DNA of 64,000 bases. Source: Mesoterricola silvestris (GTDB taxonomy: Bacteria > Acidobacteriota > Holophagae > Holophagales > Holophagaceae). Below the pieces are notes generated by a model that saw only the letters and a program-made list of their open reading frames with translations, was not told the DNA's origin and searched no databases. The position numbers and the translations under genes are program-made. Location: assembly GCF_030295405.1 (NCBI RefSeq), contig NZ_AP027080.1:2542001-2606000 (forward strand), in the 5' to 3' direction. Numbering within the stretch: the first letter of the stretch is position 1; the number at the start of each line of letters is the position of its first letter. This document shows positions 13,183 through 51,136 of the stretch, piece after piece.

Positions 13183-13369
13183 CCGGTTTCTATCCCCTTC
13201 ATCCAGTCCATCTGATTCATCCCTGTTCCCGCAGGGCCAGCGCCGGGGTGGGGCGGCGCGTGGTTGCTCTGCATGCCCCGACCCATCCCGGCTATGGCCC
13301 TGCGGGAACAGGGATGAATCGGATGATCAGGATGAAGGGGATGAAGCGCCGAACCCAGGACATTCCTGG
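13183..13369. repeat. Palindromic repeat, copy B (inverted relative to A)
   Basis: Second copy, lying in opposite orientation to copy A and almost identical to its reverse complement. Both share CCGGTTTCTATCCCCTTCAT at one end and the outer palindrome CCAGG-N5-CCTGG at the other (here about 13355-13369). It sits between the 3' ends of lptD and the convergent Cache gene. The stretch 13370-13596 beyond it is partly AT-rich (around 13383-13430), then C-rich, and I find no gene there; short frames in it are not protein-like. Confidence 0.85.
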
Positions 13370-30634: not shown

Positions 30635-30792
30635 TTTCATCCCCTGTATCCTATTCATCCGATTTCATCCCTGTTCCCGCAGGGCCAGCGATGAGGTGGG
30701 ACGGCGCGCAGGTGACCTGCATGCGTCGACCCATCCCTGCATTGGCCCTGCGGGAACAGGGATGAAATCGTATGAACAGGATGAAGGGGATC
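30635..30792. repeat. Palindromic repeat, copy C
   Basis: Third copy of the family, the most diverged. TTTCATCCCCTGTATCC opens the left arm, then TTCATCCCTGTTCCCGCAGG; the right arm is GGCCCTGCGGGAACAGGGAT then GAACAGGATGAAGGGGAT. The centre again carries GATGAGGTGGGACGGCG facing CGTCGACCCATCCCTGC. It occupies the gap between tRNA-Gln and the 3' end of the convergent aminotransferase gene. The outer CCAGG palindrome seen in other copies is not clear here. Confidence 0.8.
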
Positions 30793-45932: not shown

Positions 45933-46712
45933 ATGGACGCCGCCACCGTGATCCCCACCGATGCCCGCATGTCGTTCATGGAGCACCTGCAGGAACTGCG
46001 GGTGCGCCTGGTGCGCTCGGCCCTCACGGTGGCGGGGGCCTTCGCCCTCACCTACGCCTTCCGCCTCCGCCTGTGGACCTGGGCCCAGTGGCCCTTCCTG
46101 CAGGCCATGGGGCGCCAGCTCAAGCAGGACCCGGCCCGGCTCCAGCCCTGGGCCTTCACCGACCTCACGGAGCCCTTCTTCAGCCTCATGCGCCTTTCGG
46201 TGTGGGTCGCCGCCTTCCTGGCCGCGCCCGTGATCTTCCTGCAGGTGTGGGGCTTCATCAAGCCCGCCCTGGGCCCCCGGGAAAGGCGCCTGTTCATCCC
46301 CTTCATCCTGGGCACCAGCGGCATGTTCCTGCTGGGCCTGGCCTTCGCCTACACCCAGGCCTTCCGGTTCCTGGGCGATATCCTCTTCCAGGAGGCCGCC
46401 GGAGCGGGCCTGCGGGCCAACCTTCACATCGACAGCTACCTGGACCTGTTTCTTTCCACCCTGGTGATCACGGGATTGATGTTTGAACTTCCTGTGCTCA
46501 CCTTCTTCCTGGCCCGGTTCCGCATCGTCACGGCTGGGATGATGTTGAAATATTGGCGTCATGCCACTCTGGCGATCGTGATCGCCTCGGCGTTCTTCAC
46601 GCCCGGGGACGTGGTGCTGACGACCGTGTTTTTCAGTCTTGTGCTTCTGGGGCTGTATTTCGTGTCCGTCCTGGTGGCCTGGGCGGCGGGGCCGCGGCGG
46701 GCGCGAGGGTAG
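45933..46712 (+). CDS. tatC: Twin-arginine translocase subunit TatC
   Basis: 259 aa with six predicted membrane helices. The N-terminal MSFMEHLQELRVRLVRS holds the Tat signal-recognition segment, and FAYTQAFRFL and FELPVLTFFLARF are family-typical. It forms the receptor for twin-arginine proteins. Placement right after a Tat-dependent flavoprotein suggests a dedicated or co-regulated export system. The C-terminus has the usual basic tail. Confidence 0.93.
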   Translation: MDAATVIPTDARMSFMEHLQELRVRLVRSALTVAGAFALTYAFRLRLWTWAQWPFLQAMGRQLKQDPARLQPWAFTDLTEPFFSLMRLSVWVAAFLAAPVIFLQVWGFIKPALGPRERRLFIPFILGTSGMFLLGLAFAYTQAFRFLGDILFQEAAGAGLRANLHIDSYLDLFLSTLVITGLMFELPVLTFFLARFRIVTAGMMLKYWRHATLAIVIASAFFTPGDVVLTTVFFSLVLLGLYFVSVLVAWAAGPRRARG

Positions 46713-46795
46713 GGATGGTCGTTAAAGTGCCCTGGTAAATGAATGATGGGGTTTGCTCATATTCCCGGCGTGGGGGAATAACGGGCGAAAAGATG

Positions 46796-46896
46796 AAACG
46801 CTGGGGCGCAGAGGGCTCGCTGGGGCGCTGGGAAAAGAAAGAAGATCTTTTTTCTTTTCCCCAGCGCCCCAGCGAGCCCTCTGCGCCCCAGCGTTT
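46796..46896. repeat. 101-bp near-perfect palindrome
   Basis: Two arms of 50 and 51 bp meet at AGATCT (46843-46848). Each arm contains AAACGCTGGGGCGCAGAGGG, then CTCGCTGGGGCGCTGGG and an A-rich run; arms differ by one inserted G and one A/G change. The A/T tracts lie at the loop, so the hairpin would be GC-rich at the base. It sits in the 253 bp gap between convergent tatC and the protease-like gene; the remainder of that gap (46713-46795, 46897-46965) has nothing I recognise. Confidence 0.9.
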
Positions 46897-46965
46897 GGCA
46901 GTTCCTTGGTTTATCCACGACCTCGAGTCCAGTCAGGGCAGACCCCGCCATTCCAAGGAAGTGCC

Positions 46966-47643
46966 TTAGTTCGGACCCCATTGCTTCCGGAGGACGTACC
47001 CTCCCCAGAGGAGCGATGCCAGTACAACGCCTGCGCCGACCGTCCAGAAGAGCCAGGCGATGCGCACGTCGTGGGCCAGGAGGCCCGTGCGCGTCAGGAT
47101 CTGGAACCAGTCGTGGCCTTCCCAATCCGTGCGGCCGGTCTCCCCGGTGGTGAGGAGGAGTTGGCGGACCCGGGCATCGGCGATGTACGGGGCGCAATCC
47201 ATGAGGCTCTGGCCCAGCCACCACCCGCCCACGGAGGCGGCGAAGGGGTTCTCCTCCCTCAGGAAGGCGGCGATCACCACCAGGGGCACCAGGAGCTGCC
47301 CCAGGGTGCCGCCGAGGATGTGCAGGAAGGTCCCCAGGGGGCTGAAGACCACGTGGCCCGCCTCGTGGAAGGGCAAGTCGATCCAGTGGAGAAGGGACCG
47401 GCTGTCCAGGGGATTGGCCAGGAGCACCACGGCCGCCAGGGCCAGGAGCGCCAGGAAGACGCCCCGCACCGCCACCGGGCCCCGGTCCGGGCTGGGGGCG
47501 ACGGAGAACATGCGTCCGGCGAGCCAGGAGGGTTCCCGTTCCTCCCGCACGGGCCGGGGCCGGTAGCGGCTGAAGACCACCCCGCAGTGCAGGCACTCCT
47601 CGAGCCCGTCCTCCTGCGGCTTCTGGCAACGGGGGCAAAGCAT
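46966..47643 (-). CDS. Zinc-ribbon membrane metalloprotease-like protein
   Basis: 225 aa. An N-terminal CPRCQKP-x9-CLHCG zinc ribbon is followed by a basic linker, then about four membrane helices. The second helix carries LPFHEAGHVVF, an HExxH zinc-protease signature in a membrane setting, as in M50 site-2 proteases. The usual second M50 motif (LDG) is not seen, although a downstream D in LLAHDVRIAW might serve. Catalytic activity is therefore uncertain. Tail-to-tail with tatC. Confidence 0.72.
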   Translation of the reverse strand: MLCPRCQKPQEDGLEECLHCGVVFSRYRPRPVREEREPSWLAGRMFSVAPSPDRGPVAVRGVFLALLALAAVVLLANPLDSRSLLHWIDLPFHEAGHVVFSPLGTFLHILGGTLGQLLVPLVVIAAFLREENPFAASVGGWWLGQSLMDCAPYIADARVRQLLLTTGETGRTDWEGHDWFQILTRTGLLAHDVRIAWLFWTVGAGVVLASLLWGGYVLRKQWGPN

Positions 47644-50943: not shown

Positions 50944-51136
50944 ATGACCTGGATTCGCCGCTTCATCCCCTTTATCCCTTTCATCAAATTCATCCCCGTT
51001 CCAGCAGGGCCAGCGCCGGGGTGGGGCGGCGCGCAGGTGATCCGCATGCGCCGACCCATCCCGGCTTTGGCCCTGCGGTAACAGGGATGAATCTGATGAA
51101 AGGGATGAAGGGGATGAAACGGTTATACCAGGTCAT
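50944..51136. repeat. Palindromic repeat, copy D (full-length)
   Basis: The best-defined copy, 193 bp, bounded by the terminal inverted repeat ATGACCTGG (50944-50952) and CCAGGTCAT (51128-51136). Arms: CGCTTCATCCCCTTTATCCC and TTCATCCCCGTTCCAGCAGG on the left; GGCCCTGCGGTAACAGGGAT and GGGATGAAGGGGATGAAACG on the right. The centre is GCCGGGGTGGGGCGGCGCG facing CGCCGACCCATCCCGGC. It lies between the 3' ends of the kinase gene and the convergent small-protein gene. Nothing else is recognised in 50904-51200. Confidence 0.88.

Follow-up and report, generated by a model that had tools for sequence, protein, structure and literature searches.

The near-perfect palindrome at positions 46796–46896 of the window (the whole 64,000-nucleotide stretch of DNA analysed here) is probably, at a rough probability of 0.6, a solo copy of a class of small palindromic elements. 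On the evidence of sequence comparison, the full form of these elements would run arm, GxxExxY gene, inverted arm, and they resemble REPINs in which a predicted nuclease takes the place of the cognate protein. The comparisons document a family of copies, their internal deletions, the layout of gene between arms, the match between arm type and enzyme subclass, the co-occurrence of solo palindromes with the gene in related genomes, and the presence or absence of such units at one operon site. From these observations we infer that the nuclease is the mover of the palindromes.

Sequence and fold of the palindrome

Direct reading of the sequence confirmed the 101-bp near-perfect palindrome described in the first-pass annotation, in which one half departs from the other by a single inserted base (GGG/GGGG) and a single substitution (GAAAGAA/GAAAAAA), and AGATCT lies at the centre. 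The internal repeats it had reported were recovered as well: CGCTGGGGCGC occurs exactly four times in the window, each time inside the palindrome and twice per arm, and the text of the palindrome does differ from that of the annotation's repeats A–D. A repeat search at the site gave 48-nt arms that are 92% complementary without gaps. The longest perfect stem is 37 bp, compared with 0–15 in 20 dinucleotide shuffles of the window. Folded as a single strand, the palindrome reached −65 kcal/mol (z −14.4), whereas one arm folded alone gave z −1.4, which is within chance. Its parts are as follows.

46796–46832, forward strand: left arm, type A, the purine-rich strand, with tandem units CGCTGGGGCGCAGAGGGCT / CGCTGGGGCGCTGGG; 37-bp perfect stem
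46833–46859, no strand assigned: 27-nt centre; the equivalent place in the gene-carrying relative L051 is 475 bp with a GxxExxY gene
46860–46896, reverse strand: right arm, the left arm inverted

Two CGCTGGGGCGC-type units are thus found in each arm in inverted arrangement, and like arms flank the GxxExxY gene in L051; the window copy has a 27-bp centre without the gene and is a solo copy. The palindrome pattern gave 6 matches in viral contigs, none of them a relative, and searches with PADLOC and PHROGs returned no match.

A family of copies graded by internal deletion

Database searches recovered many relatives of the palindrome, which is accordingly neither single-copy nor isolated. BLAST against its own 4.99-Mb contig gave at least 130 matches, a lower bound because 40 of the 57 candidate spots were scored. 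With up to one mismatch, the pattern CGCTGGGGCGCWGAGNG matched the genome at 74 spots and its reversed form at 0; five other genomes of the same genus had 0–5 matches each. With an arm called at 25 or more identities out of 37, the places covered by the BLAST and pattern searches comprised 82 arms at 44 places: 29 inward pairs of the window type, 9 outward pairs, and 6 places with one recognised arm.

The centres of the inward pairs measure 18 to 475 bp and form a size series: 475 bp in L051, 151–152 bp in five copies, about 105–130 bp in others, and down to 18–32 bp. All five 151–152-bp centres keep the 3' part of the gene, and two of these copies contain sub-threshold PF13366 remnants (E 0.056 and 0.21). 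Because L051 is intact and the others show graded internal deletions, the window palindrome is best read, by comparison with these copies, as a gene-less (solo) copy that has been internally deleted. Arm identity is 0.943 within copies and 0.916 between copies (0/2000 permutations); common descent of both arms and correction would both give this closer likeness of the arms of one copy.

The centres of the nine outward pairs always measure 63–66 bp, and outward arm pairs with this constant centre may be a distinct solo form. In these pairs (L032, L058, L019, L024, L031, L048, L056, L018 and L042) the centre is itself palindromic, with GGCGCGATTGTAACAATCGCGCC in the best copies. At two other places, L055 (about 756–820) and L057 (about 310–487), window-family arms occur in a variant form whose middle has been replaced by a small hairpin (GACGAGACGCACTGCGTCGAGTC).

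The gene between the arms encodes a predicted nuclease

The relative L051 (777456–778004 of the contig) has an intact reading frame in the 475-bp centre between its arms. The encoded protein is a member of the GxxExxY family (PF13366, E 1.4e-31; TIGR04256, 113.6 bits with a cut-off of 35), and its G, E, Y, D83, E93, K95 and Q107 are all present; an alignment of 25 GxxExxY proteins that includes L051 shows no variation at the D, ExK and Q. A PDB search by sequence returned nothing credible.

A structural model of a second family member, L157 (pLDDT 96.3, pTM 0.88), had PD-(D/E)XK nucleases as its best structural matches. Foldseek returned lambda exonuclease (E 7e-4), and VIA-align placed 4ic1, which we take to be a Cas4 protein, first (Z 9.7, rmsd 4.4, 100 aligned); all other VIA-align matches had Z under 8, including the Hjc resolvase 1gef (Z 6.9, rmsd 3.2, 86 aligned). 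By its fold and conserved residues, GxxExxY (TIGR04256/PDDEXK_3, PF13366) is predicted to be a PD-(D/E)XK nuclease. The likeness to archaeal Hjc Holliday-junction resolvases and RecB/Cas4-like nucleases lies in the PD-(D/E)XK arrangement; identity is under 20%, and apart from 4ic1 the Z values under 8 may mean only a common arrangement.

Inverted arms flank the gene across phyla

Species genomes were scanned with an alignment of GxxExxY proteins, and the best 80 of 590 kept candidates, from 15 named phyla and mostly bacterial with one archaeal record, were examined for arms by aligning 300 bp upstream to the reverse complement of 300 bp downstream. Six loci with short flanks were dropped, leaving 74. 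The median inverted-arm score was 18.5, and 57 of the 74 loci exceeded the 99th percentile of shuffles (13.0), the remaining 17 being without clear inverted arms. None of 59 pairs of flanks taken 700–1000 bp away exceeded the shuffle threshold. Against mispaired flanks of other loci, a harsh control because the arms of different loci resemble each other, 22/74 were above the 99th percentile and 25/74 ranked first, with 1 expected. In direct orientation 18/74 passed the shuffle threshold, consistent with loci that have whole palindromes in their flanks; a whole palindrome is found in both flanks at 20/165 loci and in at least one flank at 61/165.

All well-sampled phyla were positive for inverted arms, among them Planctomycetota (12/13), Pseudomonadota (15/19), Chloroflexota (8/9) and Bacteroidota (7/10). 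No inverted arms were found at the loci from Cyanobacteriota (0/2), Methanobacteriota (0/1), Chlorobiota (0/1) and Ignavibacteriota (0/1). When the loci of the window's phylum and genome were pooled with this set, inverted arms were present at 140 of 166 loci (175 loci, reduced to 172 by 3 without a located gene and to 166 by 6 with short flanks); in a further arm analysis of 30 loci, 4 were dropped. The arm units are tandem and CACAGAG-like, a typical arm being TTCACCACAGAGRCACAGAGRRCACAGAG reading towards the gene, and the purine strand is directed into the gene at 121 of the 140 armed loci. As judged from these alignments, arm, GxxExxY gene, inverted arm is the general layout.

The first-pass annotation had likened the palindrome to CTCTGCGCC-type palindromes dispersed in environmental bacteria, and this kinship is now supported: it is multicopy, and GxxExxY genes of many phyla are bordered by similarly built arms (tandem C-N-R-AG units). 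In that part the earlier interpretation stands; it missed the link to a nuclease gene and the larger insertion that surrounds the palindrome.

Arm type follows enzyme subclass

The GxxExxY proteins fall into two subclasses, L (GLLESAYEECL-like) and F (GFLEKVYENAL-like), and the arms were typed as A where the units end in AG and as B where they end in AT. Armed loci of subclass L comprised 90 with type A, 0 with type B and 12 untyped, and those of subclass F comprised 16 with type B, 1 with type A and 13 untyped. Eight of the 140 armed loci belong to neither subclass, 6 of them with type-A arms, so that a table of subclass against type leaves out 33 of the 140 (25 untyped F or L loci and these 8). 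Across the typed loci compared here, arm type follows enzyme subclass. A protein tree of the 111 typed rows has a single change of arm type, and the match therefore represents one well-kept event and no repeated co-evolution.

Within this genome, the only intact L gene is associated with the type-A palindromes, and its four F genes (L059–L062) with a second palindrome family. Seven of the eight flanks of L059–L062 matched the second family above the 99th percentile of shuffles, the upstream flank of L062 failing; the inverted-repeat test on the flanks of these class-F genes is weak, with scores of 8–13. We take the second family to be the annotation's repeats A–D. Four solo copies lie in the window.

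97–247, no strand assigned: second palindrome family (TTCATCCC/GGGATGAA), solo copy
13192–13342, no strand assigned: second palindrome family, solo copy
30639–30791, no strand assigned: second palindrome family, solo copy
50944–51136, no strand assigned: second palindrome family, solo copy

The second family is more abundant in the genome than the first, with at least 40 loci, a lower bound because 40 of 248 candidates were scored.

Solo palindromes and the gene in related genomes

PF13366 was detected at E 1e-10 or better in 73 of 199 genomes of the window's phylum. Short-centred type-A palindromes were found in 7/199 and one type-B form in 2/199, with 0 matches to the reversed patterns; one of the two type-B sites in G206 is the palindrome that ends its own gene unit. 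All 8 distinct genomes with solo palindromes hold PF13366 (8/8; hypergeometric p 2.5e-4, with genomes taken as unrelated).

Thirty solo copies in related genomes have sharp ends at the arms. A shared edge word of 4 or more was present in 3/30 of them, compared with 13.2% for mispaired edges, which gives no sign of target-site duplication around these palindromes and sets them apart from a classical cut-and-paste transposon. Their centres are slightly more alike than shuffled ones, with a pairwise score of 9 or more in 11.2% of comparisons versus 0.7% after shuffling, and may share an origin. A reading frame is open across about 450 bp in 8 of the 30 pieces, so not all of them are clearly intergenic.

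In a genus of the same family (g4), 47 genomes were searched and 36 gave a match. In one genome, G206, a GxxExxY unit of about 585 bp lies between two genes of an apparent dTDP-sugar operon (the rml site), and in 16 relatives the two genes are joined by a few bases, often overlapping as TGATG. At the same site G214 and G033 hold other GxxExxY genes with their own arms, and in G018 it is occupied by a solo palindrome whose arms are of a third type; in all, 4 genomes have a copy there, with or without the gene, and 16 have none. The next gene junction holds a solo palindrome in G206, a short spacer only in three relatives, and single half-arms of other types in other relatives. Read from these sequences, the rml site is one of repeated independent arrival, or of loss and replacement, of such units. 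No clean target duplication is readable at the rml site. In G214 (L234), the GxxExxY gene at this site is followed by a tandem row of about five similar palindromes.

The insertion around the window copy and competing explanations

The window palindrome lies within a larger insertion between two convergent genes.

45933–46712, forward strand: tatC-like gene, an upstream ORF named from its translation, ending at the insertion's left edge
46710–46969, no strand assigned: larger insertion, about 260 bp long, bounded by the tatC stop TAG and the TTAG ending the convergent gene; edges approximate
46966–47643, reverse strand: convergent gene, an ORF of 225 aa with an N-terminal CxxC motif and its stop codon at the insertion's right edge

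The flanks of the palindrome within this insertion align with those of another copy, L003, which carries an IS5-like end: the left flank scores 24.5 from the TAG onwards (shuffle maximum 14.6) and the right flank 29.3 (shuffle maximum 16.0). With an IS5-like end defined as 13 or more matches out of 16 (300 shuffles gave at most 12), such ends are present in 11 of the 29 inward copies, mostly about 125 bp outside the arm, and in 0 of the 9 outward copies. In the window copy the two ends match the IS5-like TIR at 9 and 10 of 16, under the threshold. A target duplication of the CTAG kind is the rule in the IS5 family. The left edge of the window insertion reads GTAG and its right edge TTAG, an inexact repeat. 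The insertion is probably a decayed IS5-like miniature element. We take it that a type-A unit was captured by an IS5-like element in this genome and that part of the copies then spread with it as miniature IS5-like elements, the window copy probably among them.

IS5 may thereby account for part of the spread, given the ends on 11 of the 29 inward copies. The stronger claim, that the palindrome is the cargo of an IS5-family miniature element moved through its outer ends by the IS5 transposase, with GxxExxY as a passenger, draws further on the TAG-to-TTAG insertion, whose flanks are common to the IS5-ended L003, and on the class-F genes of L059 and L060, each of which has an IS5-like transposase on one side and the outer end on the other. 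As an account of the whole family we consider it unlikely, although it deserves serious weight. The outward copies lack IS5-like ends; no IS5-like transposase was found near the gene at any of the 80 loci from many phyla or at the loci scanned within the window's phylum, where the arms are nevertheless present; the solo palindromes of other genomes end sharply at the arms; and the rml-site insertions consist of the palindromic unit only. The likeness to IS5-family MITEs thus holds for the IS5-like ends outside the arms of some copies here, whereas arms and gene occur without IS5 in other phyla. Two further structures were observed at these loci. At L060:587-1380 and L060:1483-1896, and also at L059, an IS5-like element encodes its transposase in two frames that overlap and carries, ahead of its outer end, a passenger GxxExxY gene; and L059:2038-2312 is a 275-bp miniature element with perfect 35-bp terminal inverted repeats (CTAGGAGCCTGTCTACG...).

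A different reading supposes a selfish or host-useful nuclease gene that sits among unrelated older palindromes and for which the arms are favoured insertion sites rather than ends of its own. Whole palindromes in the flanks of some loci, and the row of palindromes adjoining the gene in G214, fit such a history. It is nonetheless improbable, as the arms are arranged inward at 121 of 140 loci, arm type tracks enzyme subclass, and solo palindromes without the gene were found in 0 of the 199 genomes.

We give still less credence to a fixed regulatory hairpin, a bidirectional terminator or mRNA stabiliser kept between convergent genes for the benefit of the host, despite the position of the palindrome and the great stability of its hairpin. 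Conservation with G004 and G005 of the same genus breaks at 46738/46715 and resumes at 46973; both genomes keep the two neighbouring genes and lack the palindrome at the equivalent place, which is filled by 56 and 93 bp. Because this replacing sequence has diverged, no exact empty site can be read there. The family also includes gene remnants, no terminator-like site was predicted at the palindrome, and the Rfam scan gave no family at gathering score. The scan's 49 matches below that score were nearly all to generic microRNA hairpin models and were rejected as evidence of an RNA family.

A REP/REPIN system driven by a RAYT (a Y1 tyrosine transposase) is suggested by the many palindromes, single and paired both ways, and by a cognate gene flanked by inverted copies, but it is scarcely credible here, as PF01797 was absent from the genome at an E threshold of 0.01 (it matched 6/14 in the control set), a single arm has no fold beyond chance, and GTAG/CGTC tags lie near the ends of 1 in 30 solo copies.

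A proposed mechanism and its relation to known systems

If the window palindrome is a gene-less copy of an arm–gene–arm element, movement might proceed as follows. The predicted GxxExxY nuclease would recognise the tandem-unit arms, probably when they form an extruded cruciform or an exposed long hairpin, and would cut them; the cut product would then be repaired or copied in such a way that the unit is inserted elsewhere. The enzyme would act in trans on solo palindromes, in the manner proposed for RAYTs and REPINs. A more general proposal, which we regard as evenly balanced between true and false, holds that GxxExxY proteins mobilise a widespread class of palindromic DNA. A lone PD-(D/E)XK nuclease would read a one-letter arm code (AG = L, AT = F) and would move its own gene and gene-less palindromes without a transposase, an integrase or a target duplication, and the dispersed CTCTGTG/CTCTGCG palindromes found in environmental bacteria would be its non-autonomous copies.

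REPINs have been described as dispersed palindromes that occur alone or as pairs of either orientation, together with a cognate gene between inverted copies (PMC3116915). Measured against that description, the likeness to REPIN/RAYT systems is in the short dispersed palindromic units, the single units and inverted doublets, the gene-less copies and the linked cognate gene. The differences are that the protein belongs to a PD-(D/E)XK family and is not a Y1 tyrosine transposase, that a single arm has no hairpin of its own and only the pair folds strongly, that the arms are made of tandem short units, and that there is no GTAG tag. Since RAYT, tag and per-arm hairpin are all missing, the GxxExxY element falls outside REPIN/RAYT, although the anatomy is alike.

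GTAG- and CGTC-tagged REPs are described as 20–40-bp units with terminal tags, found in several phyla and in opposite orientation, the CGTC type being without a known transposase (PMC3733652). The present palindromes likewise occur in several phyla with units in opposite orientation, and differ in that tags near the ends are confined to the single solo copy in 30 noted above. A GxxExxY gene is named beside a CRISPR-like RT in PMC8934634. No published link between the GxxExxY family and palindromic repeats was found in full-text searches of mostly open-access journal articles, and an earlier description may exist.

Taken together, the sequence comparisons point to an element consisting of a GxxExxY gene between mirror arms as a little-noticed and apparently mobile kind of dispersed DNA. 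A function open to experimental test can now be proposed for a very common 'protein of unknown function', and the puzzling dispersed palindromes of environmental genomes gain a likely source. The 'CTCTGCG' palindromes may be the remains of elements rather than host regulatory sites. If the nuclease does move the palindromes, bacteria would possess a counterpart of the REPIN system that relies on an unrelated enzyme, and its simple arm code would be open to test.
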